Below the pieces are notes generated by a model. It searched no databases. It worked only from the letters and a program-made list of their open reading frames with translations, and was not told the origin of the DNA. Source: Flammeovirgaceae bacterium (GTDB taxonomy: Bacteria; Bacteroidota; Bacteroidia; Cytophagales; Cyclobacteriaceae). Taken from it: a stretch of DNA of 41,586 bases. A program made the translations under genes and the position numbers. Location of the stretch: NCBI GenBank assembly GCA_021300095.1, contig JAJTHV010000041.1, positions 1 through 41,586 on the forward strand. Direction: 5' to 3'. Within the stretch, counting starts at the first letter, position 1. Every line of letters starts with the position of its first letter. Shown here one piece after another: positions 3,486 through 16,992 of the stretch.

Positions 3486-4406
3486 TTAAGAATAACCAAA
3501 GTAAACCATTGCCAATCGGGCATTCAGGTGATTAAACTGTTGGCGAATATCAGGAATTAATTTTTCAATTACAGATATATTATTCTCTTGTTGATAGGTA
3601 TTCATGGATTGTATCAGTTTCTGTAGCAACTCTTCTATTTCCTGAAAATGTTGCGGCTGTGAAAAATCAGCTAAACGCTGAAAATAGCGAAGCATTTGAG
3701 CCAAACTGTAACTGATCGAGTGTGGAAATTGCGTGTTAAATAAAACCTGATGTATGACTTCCTTCGCGTTCAATGCGTTTTTATAGTATTTGGTATGAAA
3801 CTCATATCCTGAAAGAGCATACAGCAGGTATTTCCAATGCACGGTTTCAACCTCTGCCTTCACCATTTGCTTGCGTTTAAACTCTACGATCTCCAGGTTT
3901 TGCAAGCACCGCTCCATATACTTTCCTAAATTTAAAAAAGTATACCCTTCACCACGATTCATCGTAACATCCAGGGTGCCATAGAAAATAATACTGTCGC
4001 GCAACAAAAAATCCAGCGCAGTTACCGGATCATTATTCATGATCAGGTCTTCTGTTTTTGGTTCTAAGATATGGTGGTAATAATCATTGAGTGCCTGCCA
4101 TAATTCTTTGGTGATGTAATCTTGCACAGAGCGCGCATTCTCACGCACACGCACGATGTTCGTAAACACAGAGCATTCATGCGGACGGCTCAACAATAAA
4201 TGATGTAACGCCTGGCGGTAATTCTCAACTTTAATTTTTTGCTCAGGTTGATCGCTACCAAATGAATCCGCCAGCAACTGCCAGTTATAGTCGAGCAATT
4301 CATCTTGCGAAGCAATGTAATCGGTGCGCAAGAGGCGCAATAAGTTATCGGTGCGCTCCAGATAACGGGCCATCCAAAAAACAGAATCGGCAACTCTACT
4401 TAACAT
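3486..4406 (-). CDS. alpha-E domain protein (DUF403)
   Basis: 306 residues beginning MLSRVADSVFWMARYLERT, the hallmark start of the alpha-E family, an all-helical protein of unknown biochemistry. It is encoded between the circularly permuted ATP-grasp gene (34 bases upstream) and the transglutaminase gene (15 bases downstream), which is the usual arrangement. The conserved N-terminal Arg, Tyr and Glu residues (RYLER) and the full length near 310 residues suggest an intact protein. It is inferred to work with the ATP-grasp enzyme in peptide or amide bond formation, or as a partner of the transglutaminase-like enzyme. No signal peptide or membrane segment is seen. Confidence 0.92.
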   Translation of the reverse strand: MLSRVADSVFWMARYLERTDNLLRLLRTDYIASQDELLDYNWQLLADSFGSDQPEQKIKVENYRQALHHLLLSRPHECSVFTNIVRVRENARSVQDYITKELWQALNDYYHHILEPKTEDLIMNNDPVTALDFLLRDSIIFYGTLDVTMNRGEGYTFLNLGKYMERCLQNLEIVEFKRKQMVKAEVETVHWKYLLYALSGYEFHTKYYKNALNAKEVIHQVLFNTQFPHSISYSLAQMLRYFQRLADFSQPQHFQEIEELLQKLIQSMNTYQQENNISVIEKLIPDIRQQFNHLNARLAMVYFGYS

Positions 4407-4440
4407 ACTTCCTCATGTGATGAATCTTATAACTAATCAA

Positions 4441-5886
4441 TTACCCCAACACCCACGTATCCTTACTTCCACCGCCTTGCGATGAATTAACCACCAACGA
4501 GCCTTCGCGCAAAGCCACTCGCGTCAATCCGCCTGGTACGATCTCGATTCCCTGCGGGCCGTACAACGCAAATGGGCGCAAATCCACATGGCGCGGTTGA
4601 ATTTTATTATTGATAAAACAAGGCACCGAAGAAAGTTGAATCATGGGCTGCGCAATAAACTGTCTCGGGTTTTTCTCAACCTCCGATTGGTAAGCCAAAA
4701 TCTGTTCATCACTCGCTGCGTGCCCCATCAGCATTCCATAGCCTCCACTTTCGTTGGTTTTCTTGATAACCATTTTTCGGATCTGCGAAAACACCAAATC
4801 AAAATGCTCGCGATTGTCCATGTAATAGGTAGGTACCGTTTTGAGAATGGGTTCTTCGTTCAGATAATATTTGATCATGCTGGGCACATACGTATACACC
4901 GCCTTGTCATCGGCCACGCCATTGCCGGGCGCATTGATGATGGCCACATTGCCGGCACGATAAGCGTAGTACAATCCGGAAACACCCAGCATGCTGTCGG
5001 GGTTGAAGACGAGTGGGTCGAGATACTCATCATCGACTCTTCGATAGATCACATCTACTTGCTTCAAACCGGCTGTTGTTTTCATGTACACTTTTGTGTT
5101 GTGCACCACCAAGTCGCGACCTTCTACCAACTCCACTCCCATCAATCGCGCAAGTGTTGTATGTTCAAAATAGGCGGAGTTATAAATTCCCGGTGTCAAC
5201 AACACTACGGTTGGATTACTCGTTTGCCGATTGGAAAGCGCTAGTAAATTTTTAAGCAAGAGATCCGGATAATCTTTCACCGAACGAACATTGTTCTTTG
5301 GCAATAAGCCCGGAAAAATTCGGTAGGTCATGTTTCGGTTCTCCAACATGTACGACACTCCCGATGGTGTGCGCAGGTTATCTTCTAACACATAAAAAGA
5401 ACCATCGCTGTCGCGGATGAGGTCGATGCCGGAGATGTGCGTGTAAATATCAAAGGGCACATCTACGTTCACCATTTCCTTCAGGTAATTTGGGCACGAG
5501 TAAATAAGCGATGCCGGAATAATTTTGTCTTTAATGATCGACTGTTCGTGATAAACGTCTTTCAAAAAAATATTGAGAGCTTTGAGTCGCTGGCGGATAC
5601 CCGCTTCAATGTGTGCCCACTCAGCTCCGGTAATGATCCGCGGAATAATATCAAAAGGAAATATTTTCTCGATTCCCTCACCATCGCTATAAACGGTGAA
5701 AGTAATACCTTGGCTCATAAAGAGCTTTTTGGCCAGCTCATCTTTTTGGGTCAAATCACCAAGCGATGCTTTTTCGAGGCTCTCCAAGAATACCTGATAG
5801 TGCTTTCTGATTTCATCGTGTGCCTGCATCTCATCCCATGTACCGGGAGGTGACTGATAGCCGGAAAGAAAATTAGTGAATGACAT
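4441..5886 (-). CDS. circularly permuted ATP-grasp protein (DUF404/DUF407)
   Basis: Predicted 481-residue member of the circularly permuted type 2 ATP-grasp family, seen in the start region (GYQSPPGTWDEM), the central DLIRDSDGSFYVLEDNLR and SGVSYMLENR motifs, the nucleotide-binding region (RKMVIKKTNESGGYGMLMG) and the C-terminal PRHVDLRPFALYG. ATP-grasp enzymes activate a carboxylate as an acyl phosphate and join it to an amine; the substrate here is unknown. I chose ATG 5886; a TTG at 5913 would add nine residues that do not look conserved. First gene of the operon with the alpha-E and transglutaminase genes. The last residues (QGGGSKDTWVLG) are the typical family C terminus, so the gene is complete. 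Confidence 0.92.
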   Translation of the reverse strand: MSFTNFLSGYQSPPGTWDEMQAHDEIRKHYQVFLESLEKASLGDLTQKDELAKKLFMSQGITFTVYSDGEGIEKIFPFDIIPRIITGAEWAHIEAGIRQRLKALNIFLKDVYHEQSIIKDKIIPASLIYSCPNYLKEMVNVDVPFDIYTHISGIDLIRDSDGSFYVLEDNLRTPSGVSYMLENRNMTYRIFPGLLPKNNVRSVKDYPDLLLKNLLALSNRQTSNPTVVLLTPGIYNSAYFEHTTLARLMGVELVEGRDLVVHNTKVYMKTTAGLKQVDVIYRRVDDEYLDPLVFNPDSMLGVSGLYYAYRAGNVAIINAPGNGVADDKAVYTYVPSMIKYYLNEEPILKTVPTYYMDNREHFDLVFSQIRKMVIKKTNESGGYGMLMGHAASDEQILAYQSEVEKNPRQFIAQPMIQLSSVPCFINNKIQPRHVDLRPFALYGPQGIEIVPGGLTRVALREGSLVVNSSQGGGSKDTWVLG

Positions 5887-5987
5887 TTCTCTAAAGATAC
5901 TAATCAGACTCAAACCTGCAAGAGGCCCGAACGAGAAATTATACTTGTTCGATCTAAAACTAAAACGAAACCGTTTGCAACTTTACT

Positions 5988-6026
5988 AAAAAAAACGGTG
6001 CCGGGTTTGTTCGACCCCGACACCGT
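5988..6026 (-). terminator. intrinsic terminator of the haloperoxidase-like gene
   Basis: Arms 5995-6005 and 6016-6026 pair over 11 positions with one mismatch (6001/6020), around a 10-base loop. The stem is GC-rich (ACGGTG, CGGG). Read on the minus strand it follows the stop of the PAP2/haloperoxidase-like gene by about 25 bases and runs directly into eight T residues (5995-5988). This is a textbook Rho-independent terminator and insulates the ATP-grasp operon downstream. Confidence 0.8.
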
Positions 6027-6050
6027 GAACCCTAACTAATAAAATCTCTT

Positions 6051-7616
6051 TTAGTTCGCTCCGTCTGTCATCGCATAGTTTACTGTATAACCTCCCACTC
6101 GTTTACCAAGCGATAATCCCTCTTTACAATCCGAGCGATAGTGAATCGCACCATACAAGCGTGAGTTAGAAGCTTCATCTGCCATACTATTAAAACCCGT
6201 GGTTCCTTGCGGGAATAGATAAGACAACACCGCAGCCGCTGATGCGGAAAATGTAGAGTGCCCCGAAACATACGCAGGGAAGTTTGGAATACCTGTGGTT
6301 GTTTTGATTGAAGGATCGAGTTGTGTTGGACGCGGATTGAAATAGAAGTACTTCGTATTCCAGCAAGCTACTGCAGCATCGTGCATCGCCATATTGAGCA
6401 AAGCAAACGCACGCGCAGCACGCACTTCACTCAACTTCGCATCGCGAATGAATTCTTCTGCTATGTCATTCCAGTGTCCAGGAGGAGTATACGTTCCTGC
6501 ACCATCAGCCCACTTATGCACAATGGCCATTTGCTCACGGGTTACGCCCGAAGCGTAACGTTTCACCTCGGCAAGCTCTTGCTTCATCTGATCGGATGAG
6601 GTGGAAGGTGGTGGCAACGGACGCTCACTCACAACTTGTGCTGGCGTCAGGTTCCATGCTTTTACATTTCCGAAAAACGGAAGCATCGGAGGGCGACTAG
6701 GCACATCCAAACTAATCCAAGGAATTTCACCCTTGGCGATCGCATCATTCTCAAACGCCTTCCATTGCGCAGGTGTCCCAATAGCGGCACCCATTCCATC
6801 CGTCCTGAATCGTCCGGTTCCTGCTGCGGTAATAAATCCAGCCACCGACTTACCTAAATTTAATCCGGCAGTAATATCACTTGAAGTTGCTCTTCCCGAC
6901 CACAACGCTGCGTTGCGCTGATCTGCCGCCAACTTGGTGATTTCTTCTACTGAAGCTGGAAATAAAACTTTCAACATTTCCGCAGCCGCTCCAGACATCG
7001 TTGCATCTTCGGATGGATACGGAGGTAAATCAATTTTTGGCATCAACGCTTGCACACCGTTGTCCACTTCATAAGGTGAATCGGGCCGGGTGGTTTTATA
7101 CAGATCTTTGTAATACCATGCAGCCTTTAACGCATCATAGATAGCGACACTTACATAACTATAAGCACGTGCGGCATACGGTGGATTAGAAAATGGAAAC
7201 TGTGGATTGCTGAATGGGTTTTCCGCGTCCGGTATAGGATAACTTCCATCGGGATTTGGAACCGGAGGCAAATTGTATTGCGCTACCAGTTTACGAAAGA
7301 TTTGATTCCAGCGTAACACACCGCCTACACTCCAATACTCGATGGTTTTCTTCTGGTCAGATGTCAATTTGCTCTGAATATCTTTTAGTGAAGCCAGTTC
7401 GGATAAATAAGCAGCTGAATTAGTAGACGTTGGTGCTGGAACGGAAATCTGATTGTTGGAAGTTAAAACAACCGGCAACCAGGTGCCTGCATTCGCATCC
7501 ACGTTCGTTGGCACATAGGGATACAGTGCTTCATTTCCGGTAATGTCCTTGCAGCTAAATGGCAATAAGACTAGGATCAGTGCAACGGCAAATAAGCGTG
7601 TAGTAAATAGCTTCAT
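6051..7616 (-). CDS. PAP2/vanadium-dependent haloperoxidase-like lipoprotein
   Basis: 521 residues. The N terminus is a lipoprotein signal (lipobox LLPFSC), so the protein is probably membrane-anchored and extracytoplasmic. The C-terminal third carries the three PAP2/vanadium haloperoxidase motifs: NPRP (Arg429), SGHS (residues 451-454, with His453 the likely acid-base residue) and R-x5-H-x-R-x-D (Arg486, His492, Asp496). The family binds phosphate or vanadate; members either oxidise halides with peroxide or are acid phosphatases, and sequence alone does not decide which. The usual Pro before SGH is Val here. It lies five bases after a barrel-protein gene, so the two are co-transcribed, and ends at a strong terminator (5988-6026). 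Confidence 0.85.
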   Translation of the reverse strand: MKLFTTRLFAVALILVLLPFSCKDITGNEALYPYVPTNVDANAGTWLPVVLTSNNQISVPAPTSTNSAAYLSELASLKDIQSKLTSDQKKTIEYWSVGGVLRWNQIFRKLVAQYNLPPVPNPDGSYPIPDAENPFSNPQFPFSNPPYAARAYSYVSVAIYDALKAAWYYKDLYKTTRPDSPYEVDNGVQALMPKIDLPPYPSEDATMSGAAAEMLKVLFPASVEEITKLAADQRNAALWSGRATSSDITAGLNLGKSVAGFITAAGTGRFRTDGMGAAIGTPAQWKAFENDAIAKGEIPWISLDVPSRPPMLPFFGNVKAWNLTPAQVVSERPLPPPSTSSDQMKQELAEVKRYASGVTREQMAIVHKWADGAGTYTPPGHWNDIAEEFIRDAKLSEVRAARAFALLNMAMHDAAVACWNTKYFYFNPRPTQLDPSIKTTTGIPNFPAYVSGHSTFSASAAAVLSYLFPQGTTGFNSMADEASNSRLYGAIHYRSDCKEGLSLGKRVGGYTVNYAMTDGAN

Positions 7617-14120: not shown

Positions 14121-14756
14121 ATGACCAAGCAGGAAAAAGCCGATAAAATCATTTCGATATTAGAAAAACTGTATCCCACAGTAGAAGTGCCCTTGCATCA
14201 CAAAGATGCCTACACACTTCTTGTGTCTGTTCTGCTTTCTGCGCAATGCACCGATGAACGTGTGAACAAAGTAACACCGCATCTTTTTAAAGCGGCCGAC
14301 AATCCTTACGACATGATGAAGCTTTCAGTCGAAGAGATTCGTGAAATCATCAAGCCTTGTGGATTATCGCCCATGAAATCCAAAGGCATTGCCGGGCTTT
14401 CAAAAATATTGGTAGAAAAATACAACGGGCAAGTGCCTGATACTTTTGAGGCGCTCGAAGCTCTTCCGGCAGTAGGTCATAAAACCGCCAGTGTGGTGAT
14501 GACGCAATGGTTTGGCAAGCCAGCCTTTCCAGTAGACACACACATTCACCGACTTGCGTATCGATGGACACTGAGCACCGGTAAAAGTGTGGAGCAAACC
14601 GAACGCGATTTAAAAAAAGTGATCCCCATCGAAAAATGGAATAAGGCGCACTTGCAAATCATCTACTTCGGCAGAGAATACTGTCCGGCACGCGGCCACG
14701 ATTGGAAAACCTGCCCGATCTGCAAAAAGTATATGCGTAAAGAGCTACGCGACTAA
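14121..14756 (+). CDS. nth: endonuclease III (DNA glycosylase/AP lyase)
   Basis: 211 residues from ATG 14121, the same length as the E. coli enzyme (a GTG at 14103 would add six residues). The helix-hairpin-helix LPAVGHKTASVV carries catalytic Lys121, and Asp139 sits in FPVDTHIHRLAY, matching Lys120 and Asp138 of E. coli. It removes oxidised pyrimidines and cuts abasic sites in base-excision repair. Odd feature: the C-terminal iron-sulfur loop has only three cysteines (Cys188, Cys198, Cys201) with wrong spacing, and nothing after Cys201 replaces the fourth ligand, so a normal [4Fe-4S] cluster is doubtful. The coding region ends 24 bases before palindrome copy 1. Confidence 0.95.
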   Translation: MTKQEKADKIISILEKLYPTVEVPLHHKDAYTLLVSVLLSAQCTDERVNKVTPHLFKAADNPYDMMKLSVEEIREIIKPCGLSPMKSKGIAGLSKILVEKYNGQVPDTFEALEALPAVGHKTASVVMTQWFGKPAFPVDTHIHRLAYRWTLSTGKSVEQTERDLKKVIPIEKWNKAHLQIIYFGREYCPARGHDWKTCPICKKYMRKELRD

Positions 14757-14779
14757 TTCCACTATAAATTGTCATTTTT

Positions 14780-14824
14780 CGAACCCCGCAAATTGAAAGT
14801 CAGACTTTCAATTTGCGGGGTTCG
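14780..14824. repeat. perfect palindrome, copy 1 (left flank of ATPase cassette)
   Basis: Arms 14780-14801 and 14803-14824 are exact reverse complements (22 bp each) around a single A at 14802. The inner 42 bases (14782-14823, beginning AACCCCGCAAATTGAAAG) recur identically at 16004-16045. On the plus strand the right arm is followed by a tandem CGTATTTTT repeat (14823-14840), so it can also act as an intrinsic terminator for nth. Confidence 0.95.
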
Positions 14825-14841
14825 TATTTTTCGTATTTTTG
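14812..14841 (+). promoter_or_regulatory. predicted Bacteroidota-type promoter of the ATPase gene
   Basis: TATTTTTG at 14834-14841 fits the Bacteroidota -7 box TAnnTTTG exactly. TTTG at 14812-14815 is a good -33 box at a spacing of 18 bases, and this TTTG is inside the right arm of palindrome copy 1. The ATG lies five bases after the -7 box, so the message would be nearly leaderless. Predicted by motif only. Confidence 0.45.
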
Positions 14842-14846
14842 CTATT

Positions 14847-16001
14847 ATGTTGCTTAGCCGCCTGAAAGAAAGAGAAATCAGAAAATACCTGAAGCATTTT
14901 CCCGCTGTAGGTATTACGGGGCCACGTCAATGCGGAAAATCAACGTTAGCCAAAGAAATCATTCGCAGTTACAAGAAAGCGATGTATCTGGATTTGGAAA
15001 ACCCGGAGGACAGAGCAAAACTCACAGATCCTTCTTTGTTCTTATCACAAAATCAAGGTAAACTGATCTGCTTCGATGAAGTGCAATTTATGCCTGAGCT
15101 GTTCATGATACTGCGTAGTGTGATAGATCGCACAAAGAAAAATGGGCAATTTCTTCTGCTCGGTTCCGCCTCGCCCGAACTATTGAAACAATCCTCAGAA
15201 ACATTGGCCGGCAGAATTGTGTACACCGAACTCAGTCCTTTTGGTCTTATTGAAACGATCGAGCTTCCCAAAGCTTCATTACAAAAACTATGGGTGCGGG
15301 GTGGCTTCCCCATGAGTTTCTTGGCGAAACAAGAAAACATCAGTTTTGTATGGCGCAAAAACTTTGTTCGTACCTTTTTGGAAAGAGACTTGTCCGCATT
15401 TGGAGTAGGTATCGCTCCTGAAAACATGCGCAGATTTTGGATGATGTGTGCTCACTTGCACGGCCAAGCACTTAATTTATCAAGCTTGGGTAACTCGCTT
15501 GGCATTACGCACCCTACCGTGAAACACTATGTAGACGTAATGGTTAACACATACATGCTGCGTAAAATTGAACCGTACTATGCCAACATCGATAAGCGCT
15601 TAAAGAAAAGTTCAAAAATCTATCTTGCTGATAGTGGGTTACTTCACACGCTACTCAACATCAGCAGCATCAATGATTTAATGTCGCACCCGGTAGCCGG
15701 ATTTTCGTGGGAAGGGTTTGTGCTCAGTCAGATGATGAGCCACTTACCAGACTGGGAGTTTTACTATGCCACCACGGCCGACCAAGCCGAAATTGATTTT
15801 GTTATAAAAAAAGGAAAACGGCTGGTAGCCATCGAATGTAAACTTTCTAAAGCACCCCGAGTGACAAAAGGATTCTATTACTTGTTAGCTGATCTAAAAA
15901 TAAAAGAAGCTTTTGTGGTTTGTCCAGTCGAAGAAGGATTTTCGATTAGTAAGCAAACAAGCGTAGTCAGCATCTCCGAACTTTTAAATAAACTACATTA
16001 A
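14847..16001 (+). CDS. AAA+ ATPase with DUF4143 (PD-(D/E)XK nuclease-like) domain, palindrome-flanked
   Basis: 384 residues from ATG 14847; the reading frame continues upstream through the palindrome, but no promoter-compatible start is there. N-terminal AAA domain: Walker A GPRQCGKST (25-33), Walker B LICFDEVQ (Asp77, Glu78) and a sensor Ser in LLLGSAS. Then a winged-helix-like segment (about 208-240) and the DUF4143 region, whose end has the nuclease-fold signature Glu289 ... Asp317 (AEIDFVI) ... Glu330-x-Lys332 (AIECK). All expected catalytic positions are present. Its cellular role is unknown; this ATPase family is abundant and often variable between related genomes. Stop codon and palindrome copy 2 are two bases apart; the gene separates nth from fmt. 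Confidence 0.9.
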   Translation: MLLSRLKEREIRKYLKHFPAVGITGPRQCGKSTLAKEIIRSYKKAMYLDLENPEDRAKLTDPSLFLSQNQGKLICFDEVQFMPELFMILRSVIDRTKKNGQFLLLGSASPELLKQSSETLAGRIVYTELSPFGLIETIELPKASLQKLWVRGGFPMSFLAKQENISFVWRKNFVRTFLERDLSAFGVGIAPENMRRFWMMCAHLHGQALNLSSLGNSLGITHPTVKHYVDVMVNTYMLRKIEPYYANIDKRLKKSSKIYLADSGLLHTLLNISSINDLMSHPVAGFSWEGFVLSQMMSHLPDWEFYYATTADQAEIDFVIKKGKRLVAIECKLSKAPRVTKGFYYLLADLKIKEAFVVCPVEEGFSISKQTSVVSISELLNKLH

Positions 16002-16003
16002 CA

Positions 16004-16045
16004 AACCCCGCAAATTGAAAGTCAGACTTTCAATTTGCGGGGTTC
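16004..16045. repeat. perfect palindrome, copy 2 (right flank of ATPase cassette)
   Basis: The 42 bases are identical to 14782-14823. Perfect arms of 20 bp (16004-16023 and 16025-16044) surround a single A at 16024. It starts two bases after the ATPase stop codon and could form its terminator hairpin, but no T-run follows on the plus strand. The fmt start codon is 15 bases downstream. Confidence 0.95.
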
Positions 16046-16059
16046 ATAAATCCACACAA

Positions 16060-16992
16060 ATGACTCCACTTCGCATCATTTTTATGGGCACGCCTGAGTT
16101 TGCCGTGCCGAGTTTAGAAATACTTATTGAAAACAAGTTTCAAGTGGTAGCCGTGATTACAGCACCCGATAAACCGCAAGGCCGTGGGCAAAAACTGACT
16201 GCGTCACCAGTAAAGGAGTGTGCGTTGAAGTACCACATCCCGGTGCTGCAACCTACCAATCTAAAATCGCCTGAATTTTTAGAAGAGTTAAAAAGTTATC
16301 AAGCCAATTTGCAAATCGTTGTTGCCTTTCGGATGTTGCCCGAAGTGGTGTGGGCAATGCCTGCCATCGGCACATTTAATTTGCATGGCTCACTCCTGCC
16401 ACAATACCGCGGAGCAGCTCCCATCAACTGGGCTATTATCAACGGAGAAAAAGAAACAGGCGCCACCACGTTTTTTCTCAAACACGAGATTGATACCGGC
16501 AGCATCATCTTTCAAGACAAAGAACCTATCCATGAAAATGATGACGTGGGCACCGTTTACGACCGGTTGATGAACAAGGGAGCGCAACTCGTTTTGAAGA
16601 CTGTGCGAGCCATTGAACAAGGAAACTACGCATCTACTCCACAGCCCAGTGGTATTGAAATAAAACACGCGCCTAAAATCTTCAAAGAAACGTGCGAAAT
16701 CAACTGGAATCAACCGAGTGAGCAAATCCGCAATTTCGTTCGGGGGCTGAGTCCCTACCCTGCCGCATGGACCTCATTGAACGGAAAAGTATATAAGGTA
16801 TTTCGGGTAACTCGTCTTCCTGTCAATGCAAGTAACTCATCTCTCTCCACGGGATCTATTCAAACCGATAACAATACGTATCTTTATGTCAAAACTTCAG
16901 ACGGCTGGATTTCAATAGAAGAGTTTCAACCGGAAGGTAAAAAGCGAATGGCGGTACAAGATTTTTTCAGAGGTAATAAAATAGAAATATAA
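16060..16992 (+). CDS. fmt: methionyl-tRNA formyltransferase
   Basis: 310 residues, typical of the family. N-terminal formyltransferase domain with [15 protein letters not shown], the folate-binding/active-site block [17 protein letters not shown], and DTGS further on; C-terminal oligonucleotide-binding-like domain ([11 protein letters not shown]). It adds a formyl group from 10-formyl-tetrahydrofolate to initiator Met-tRNA. I chose ATG 16060 ([10 protein letters not shown]); the longer frame from 16015 begins inside palindrome copy 2 and is spurious. Its stop codon lies only one base before folA, so the two folate-linked genes are co-transcribed. Confidence 0.97.

Follow-up and report, generated by a model that had tools for sequence, protein, structure and literature searches.

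A solitary ATPase gene enclosed by two palindromes

The window, which is the whole 41,586-nucleotide stretch of DNA that we analysed, carries an ATPase gene between nth and fmt, with a palindrome on each side of the gene. The features of the locus are as follows.

14121–14756, plus strand: nth (endonuclease III), left neighbour, assigned from the open reading frame list and a genus-wide protein match
14780–14824, no strand: upstream palindrome with 22-nt arms and a central A, the clade's form of the family dyad, half-site AACCCCGCAAATTGAAAG
14834–14841, plus strand: candidate promoter box TATTTTTG, a match to TAnnTTTG, between the palindrome and the ATG
14847–16001, plus strand: AAA_14-DUF4143 ATPase gene (PDC-S01 family), 384 aa, with a predicted winged helix and a PD-(D/E)XK motif
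14919–14945, plus strand: Walker A region, residues 25–33 (GPRQCGKST)
15417–15626, plus strand: predicted winged-helix segment, residues about 191–260, from Foldseek matches to MarR/ArsR-type regulators
15711–15842, plus strand: nuclease motif E289...E315-x-D317...E330-x-K332, from invariance in the alignment
16004–16044, no strand: downstream palindrome with 20-nt arms and a central A, a second copy that was also found in genomes G009 and G061
16060–16992, plus strand: fmt (methionyl-tRNA formyltransferase), right neighbour

The ATPase gene starts with the ATG at 14847 and ends with the stop codon at 15999–16001, and nth, the ATPase gene and fmt are all on the plus strand. Between the palindromes, the sole other open reading frame of at least 100 aa was one of 124 aa on the reverse strand, inside the ATPase gene. 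The sequence-only reading of this DNA had placed a 384-residue DUF4143 ATPase between nth and fmt, enclosed by two identical 42-base palindromes with a central A. The coordinates and the Pfam results agreed with this description, and bases 14782–14823 were the same as 16004–16045, with 98% identity over 45 bases. The gaps were also as it had given them, with 23 bases between the identical 42-base copy and the ATG (22 from the longer palindrome) and 2 bases between the stop codon and the downstream palindrome.

The arms of the upstream palindrome were 100% complementary over 22 nt, and both copies had the same centre, GTCAGAC. A search of the window's own genome (G000) with the 20-nt arm, allowing up to 3 mismatches, generated four arm matches, all at the two palindromes, and none for the reversed control. 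The fold of a 121-nt stretch with the upstream palindrome was 5.9 s.d. below that of its own shuffles. Since the arm is unique to two places in the genome and the fold lies far below the shuffles, the two palindromes are not a matter of chance. The arm sequence had no exact match in viral contigs.

The encoded protein combines an ATPase with a nuclease motif

Pfam analysis of the window protein revealed PF13173 (AAA_14, E 3e-29) followed by PF13635 (DUF4143, E 7e-44) and nothing else, so that the absence of a transposase or integrase domain, noted earlier from the sequence, was borne out. Seven PDC-S01 models of PADLOC matched the protein, with a best E of 5e-83. Of 63 proteins, 58 full-length ones were aligned, the window's included; the Walker A residues G25, R27, G30 and K31 and the nuclease residues E289, E315, D317, E330 and K332 were invariant in all of them. 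With AAA_14 followed by DUF4143 and intact Walker and PD-(D/E)XK motifs, the protein has the make-up of PDC-S01, which the accessible part of PMC12988326 describes as a fusion of an ATPase with a PD-(D/E)XK member. The same part ranks PDC-S01 as the fourth commonest defence across prokaryotes, with 29,494 bacterial and 9,986 archaeal copies, and states that most PDCs still await experimental validation. The DUF4143/PDC-S01 protein is regarded as a candidate antiviral ATPase-nuclease. DUF4143 ATPases had been said to be numerous, and the window's genome alone contained nine DUF4143 matches; seven phage records carried distant relatives.

The predicted structure had a pLDDT of 91 for the whole protein and 92 for a fragment of residues 160–384. 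Foldseek matched the whole model mainly to AAA+ proteins, in a list that includes Orc1/Cdc6, RuvB and MuB. The 160–384 model was matched, at modest E-values, to MarR-type regulators and to the nucleases McrC and Can2, and the best match of the fragment was a MarR-type regulator (E 6.5e-4, low TM-scores of about 0.27/0.41). No helix-turn-helix family was found above the Pfam cut-off in the window protein, and the PDB sequence search gave no match at E ≤ 1. The model indicates that the DUF4143 part could hold a MarR-like winged helix able to bind a two-fold palindrome.

Expression data exist for a Thermus gene with the AAA_14-DUF4143 pair. As given in the accessible text of PMC4406477, it was 6.6-fold up in the plasmid-carrying wild type, and no change over 4-fold was reported for it in the strain without Argonaute. 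The case demonstrates that a gene of this type is inducible, and does not indicate the route.

A palindrome with a common half-site precedes most DUF4143 genes

Two samples of DUF4143 genes were compared with other genes. The first comprised 62 copies with flanks from the own genome (four of its nine matches) and from relatives of the same genus and order, weak and partial matches being left out; the second comprised the best 80 of 498 DUF4143 copies from named GTDB genomes of many phyla. In the first sample, a long palindrome (score ≥12) lay within 100 nt upstream of 37 of the 62 copies and 10 of 276 other ORFs, and downstream of 3/62 and 35/289, respectively. At a dyad score of at least 9, 94 of the 142 DUF4143 genes (48/62 genus and order copies, 46/80 GTDB copies) had a dyad at their start, compared with 26 of the 394 other genes (p = 2.7e-44). 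The 142 copies are related sequences rather than independent draws. Control ORFs were started at their first ATG and ATPases at an ATG close to the start seen in the alignment, a difference that may depress the control rate. At least three of the 26 dyad-bearing control genes were themselves an ATPase or a scar site and were left in the count. Downstream, dyads were found for 14 of 140 ATPases and 54 of 426 other genes. The 48 ATPases without a dyad at this threshold (48/142) count against a universal rule, and no palindrome was found at C279, C342 and C284 of the own genome.

The dyads shared, across phyla, a common half-site of about ATCCTTGCAAATT in a fixed register to the centre. A one-base centre was present in 75 of the 94, and 13 of these 75 odd-centred dyads were centred at −19, with the right arm extending into the start codon. 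Among ten alphaproteobacterial plasmid copies, five reached a score of 9 and eight a score of 8.5; all eight were centred at −19 and had a ATCCTTGCAAATT-like half-site. A matrix built from 42 GTDB dyads gave a median of 22.6 for 33 order-level dyads and −13.3 for control dyads (n = 11; p = 5e-4), and 24 of the 33 scored at least 10. The three high-scoring control dyads were one ATPase site, belonging to a neighbouring locus, and two lone dyads (scars). The dyad pattern matched 66 times, and its reversal not once, in 1.53 Mb of loci that had been selected around these sites; for 32 of the 43 distinct dyad sites, a DUF4143 match followed within 200 nt.

Protein identity was correlated with half-site identity (rho 0.51, n = 32, 0/2000 permutations). 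Because of this co-variation and the predicted MarR-like winged helix, the upstream dyad is probably the protein's own DNA site and a putative autoregulatory operator. The upstream palindrome is a widespread family trait, and the palindrome pair is rare. The sequence-only reading had proposed a search for palindrome pairs around these ATPases; the upstream member is common, whereas a pair was seen in only 6 of 143 copies, and direct repeats of a non-dyad kind flank some copies elsewhere.

The upstream palindrome as a probable DNA site

A palindrome in front of a gene could act in DNA or in RNA. In the order-level set, 27 of the 62 ATPases had the box TAnnTTTG within −45 to +2, compared with 26 of the 256 other genes. 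We take TAnnTTTG to be the Bacteroidota −7 promoter element; the string is found in the Bacteroides promoter literature. Given the box at 14834–14841 as the −7 element, the palindrome would cover the −33 region. Mismatched pairs in the odd-centred dyads were A-A (29), T-T (26), G-T (17) and A-C (10); G-T was without clear excess over A-C, which suggests a DNA site rather than RNA. The symmetry through a one-base centre is too tight for a hairpin loop.

We weighed two other readings of the palindrome against that of an operator. As an RNA hairpin in the ATPase mRNA, it would govern translation or stability, and the strong RNA fold and the right arm that often runs into the start codon speak for this. 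We consider it improbable all the same, since the mismatches are mostly A-A or T-T without a clear wobble excess, the symmetry passes through a single base, a promoter box separates the palindrome from the ATG in the window, as in many order-level copies, and Rfam returned no family at gathering score within 14500–16300. Still less probable, in our judgement, is that nth and the ATPase gene each end in an ordinary intrinsic terminator and that the two share their sequence by happenstance. The hairpin is strong, and the upstream copy scores terminator-like, with a T-rich tail, so that it could terminate nth transcripts; but the downstream copy was not flagged, and dyads are enriched upstream of the ATPases and not downstream. 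Moreover, the half-site spans phyla and is absent from control dyads, ATPase and scar sites apart, and the palindrome sequence occurs at no other place in the genome. The terminator was rejected as sole explanation because of the lacking downstream enrichment and the common half-site.

The nth-fmt junction is filled, scarred or empty among relatives

An nth match was obtained in all 58 genus genomes drawn (58/58), consisting of distant paralogues alone in G006, G030 and G070 and of a short piece in G021. The nth-fmt junction could be read in 37 of 62 genus genomes, and the ATPase was sought there with the window protein. Four of the 37 junctions were filled, with two dyads in G000, G009 and G061 and one in G001. 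Five (G080, G011, G081, G012 and G078) had one dyad and no gene. The remaining 28 had neither gene nor dyad in sight, five of them having no fmt on the examined locus; one of the 28, in G008, has a stretch that by eye resembles half a decayed dyad. Junctions with no gene and zero or one palindrome, anticipated from the sequence alone, were thus present, and the gene is neither fixed between nth and fmt nor are the palindromes confined to unrelated genes as terminators.

Dyads at filled sites had 19–20 of 20 positions paired (17 in G001), and the lone dyads had 20 (G080), 20 (G011), 16 (G081), 13 (G012) and 12 (G078). There is a trend for lone dyads to decay after presumed gene loss, seen in five genomes of which two, G080 and G011, are still perfect. 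In L137, the locus of G080, a run of N lies at about 1745–1962 in fmt beside the lone palindrome, and the reading of fmt is incomplete. Eleven scar loci searched with DUF4143 proteins gave no match.

The identities of the ATPase, nth and fmt were 89%, 91% and 79% between G009 and G061, 75%, 80% and 72% between G000 and G009, and 73%, 81% and 75% between G000 and G061; the G001 ATPase was more distant (62–68%). Since divergence of the ATPase matches that of nth and fmt, the gene at this junction appears to be a resident and not newly moved. Identity drops to the right of the insertion when compared with G012, G078 and G080, with no sharp tract. A recent import of the ATPase was rejected, since there is no sharp identity tract and the ATPase tracks its flanks. 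The sequence-only reading had taken the gene and its palindromes for a compact cassette moved or copied as one unit; the empty sites and the flanking repeats described below fit this, whereas the ATPase at nth-fmt has diverged with its neighbours and appears inherited in place.

In a tree of nth and mutS, sisters were G012 and G000, G080 and G078, G081 and G009, and G011 and G071. The simplest history of the sequences would be an old resident gene that disappeared on four or more occasions, each time leaving one dyad behind. This history also implies many traceless losses (28/37 junctions) or allele exchange between lineages. At L106 (G059) and L128 (G063), an Xre/MbcA/ParS-type antitoxin gene, identified by Pfam in L106 and by likeness in L128, lies between nth and fmt, which indicates that the junction accepts different accessory genes.

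Lone dyads at other sites

Other junctions were read at mutS (30 of 55 with a match), wzx (21/31) and downstream of cinA (11/56). At the mutS site, G000 had a dyad and a paralogue, G078 and G080 had a dyad only, and G012, G011 and G059 had nothing. At the start of wzx, six of the 21 genomes were filled, three (G032, G081 and G008) had only a dyad and an ATG, and twelve had neither. At wecB in G024, a dyad adjoins some 80 nt with 80% identity to the ATPase 3' end and the following bases in G009; G013 is alike. From its sequence, we read this remnant as a direct trace of ATPase loss. Lone dyads were few and mostly lay at places where relatives carry the gene. It appears, as far as such comparison goes, that the ATPase gene was lost repeatedly at several sites with a lone dyad left as a scar. 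No downstream dyad was found at mutS, wecB or wzx in the filled relatives scanned (G070 left out), and hence not every scar can have arisen by deletion between two dyads.

The downstream copy

Six of the 143 copies had a downstream dyad similar to their upstream one, namely the window, G009 and G061 at the same nth-fmt locus, and G025:C33, L212 and G054:C18. In G000, G009 and G061, both dyads were intact, with 19–20 of 20 pairs. The two copies of G009, and likewise those of G061, have different centres with intact arms, and thus both copies seem to be kept on their own account. The downstream copy might instead be a passive duplicate, held identical by recombination or replication slippage and without function. 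The identical centre GTCAGAC in both window copies, as if homogenised, and the missing downstream copy in most relatives are consistent with this; we regard it as rather unlikely, since in G009 and G061 the arms have stayed intact with different centres, despite neighbouring coding DNA that is only about 70% identical to the window's. In L062 (G054:C18), about 17.7 tandem 55-bp dyad units stand at 3679–4654 directly behind a DUF4143 ATPase with two further dyads in front of it, indicating that the dyad can be amplified into an array.

A proposed self-regulating gene and its analogues

Taken together, we consider it fairly probable that the window carries a solitary, self-regulating DUF4143/PDC-S01 ATPase-nuclease with its own operator palindrome, and that the gene can be lost between the two copies. 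Sequence comparison demonstrates how widespread the dyad is, where it lies and that it co-varies with the protein, along with the filled, one-palindrome and empty sites. A dimer would bind the upstream palindrome through the winged helix in DUF4143 and would shut the promoter between the palindrome and the ATG, so that the nuclease would be made only once the protein leaves the palindrome on some trigger. In the window's orthologue group, a second site lies after the stop codon and would have been kept. A precise deletion between the two direct copies may remove the gene, after which the one remaining palindrome would decay.

By analogy, the closest worked-out case is CapW on the CBASS promoter, as described in the accessible part of PMC9122588. 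If the operator reading is correct, the likeness lies in a winged-helix dimer on a promoter palindrome that silences a defence gene, as in CapW/BrxR (PMC9122588). There, the regulator is a separate transcription factor with a site of about 19–24 bp (PMC9122588), whereas in the window the putative repressor is the ATPase-nuclease itself and the dyad spans about 40 bp. Like the window protein, Orc1/Cdc6 and other AAA+ winged-helix binders have an AAA+ part followed by a winged helix; the window protein differs in carrying an invariant nuclease motif after its predicted winged helix, and its putative sites are at its own promoter. Archaeal cdc6 genes often adjoin origin boxes. In REP/RAYT and IS200/IS605-like elements, end palindromes bracket the gene and lone palindromes occur elsewhere; the window unit differs in having no transposase domain, and its lone dyads are few and mostly found where relatives have the gene.

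Neither the dyad, nor lone copies, nor flanking repeats were found in the literature on PDC-S01 and DUF4143 that we surveyed, most of which was freely accessible text. A cognate DNA site readable from the sequence would predict the protein's target, how it is silenced and what is required of a trigger. Lone sites and flanking repeats also raise the question of whether this 'defence' family might be a mobile element as well, of a kind not yet described.

Direct repeats flank a part of the copies

Within 600 nt, direct repeats flanked 23 of the 134 copies and 3 of the 246 controls (p = 9e-9); with dyad repeats removed, the counts were 19/134 and 3/246 (p = 5e-7). The controls initially gave five, of which two were DUF4143 genes and were dropped. 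Repeats were 21–273 bp long. The cinA 3' end was repeated in G002 (243 bp) and G033 (124 bp), the wzx 5' end in G028 (31/31) and G013 (29/30) with a 10-nt remnant in G024, and the wecB 5' end in G009 (193 bp, 97%). The filled wzx sites of G009, G070 and G027 had no wzx-type repeat. At L059 (G009:C1) 3809–6599, a DUF4143 gene stands between a full wecB-like gene of 362 codons and a partial repeat ORF of 130 codons, and at L255 a 75-bp repeat extends to the stop codon of a DUF4143 gene. Two cinA matches at E ≤ 1e-15 were present in G002 alone among 56 genus genomes with cinA, the G033 repeat falling below this cut-off. The G002 and G033 repeats were 94% and 89% identical to their own neighbour copies and 83% to each other; as each is closer to its own neighbour, the two duplications look independent. 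In 11 of the 23 cases, the right repeat began within 8 nt of the ATPase stop codon. The repeat sequences suggest insertion of a unit that ends at the stop codon, with long and variable duplications. One-sided homologous import could yield similar repeats.

The gene and its dyad may be a minimal mobile element that inserts at gene boundaries and is later lost, leaving the dyad, possibly by a homing-like route in which its own nuclease and host repair duplicate neighbour sequence or the dyad. We hold both the element and this route to be possible, if doubtful. The excess of repeats over controls, the identification of repeats as pieces of the neighbour genes cinA, wzx and wecB, the apparent independence of the G002 and G033 duplications, the single genome with two cinA matches, the repeats close to the stop codon and the mosaics of filled, scar and empty states at four sites all point this way. 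Against it, the ATPase tracks its flanks at nth-fmt, there is no transposase or recombinase, the repeat lengths of 21–273 bp are unlike the fixed-length target duplication of transposons, and the repeats of neighbour genes could stem from one-sided import. Repeats of a downstream gene's start also come near the stop codon partly through short intergenic gaps, and among ten alphaproteobacterial plasmid copies none showed a repeat at E ≤ 1e-4.

Behaviour like that of att sites, with one copy when empty and two when filled, is seen at nth-fmt but not at mutS and wzx, where the filled copies scanned have one dyad. Insertion of a homing endonuclease gene disrupts the recognition site, whereas the dyads are intact in carriers, if the dyad is the site. 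Within-species empty sites were sought in Thermus plasmids, with no clean case (insertion sequences confound the comparison and the Thermus dyad is below threshold), and in the Sphingobium tra region, again with no clean case and with relatives of only 80–83% identity. A broader proposal, which we rate as unlikely but worth stating, is that DUF4143/PDC-S01 genes are transposase-free homing-like elements and that each subfamily has its own DNA palindrome, both as operator and as a site by which the gene is marked or received or which outlasts it. If true, the 'defence' label of PDC-S01 would partly reflect the behaviour of a selfish element.

Repeats on the 3' side of mutS

A lone dyad, AACCGTGAAAATCTAAAAT.., follows mutS at position 2389 of L170 (G018), with no DUF4143 match in that locus. 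A second ATPase family stands after GTAACTTACA-type repeats on the 3' side of mutS in L162, L163, L165, L171 and L176. By eye, similar repeats follow mutS in L164, L170, L174, L175 and L181, where the second ATPase was not seen. The L162 ATPase matched AAA_14 above the Pfam cut-off and ATPase_2 below it.
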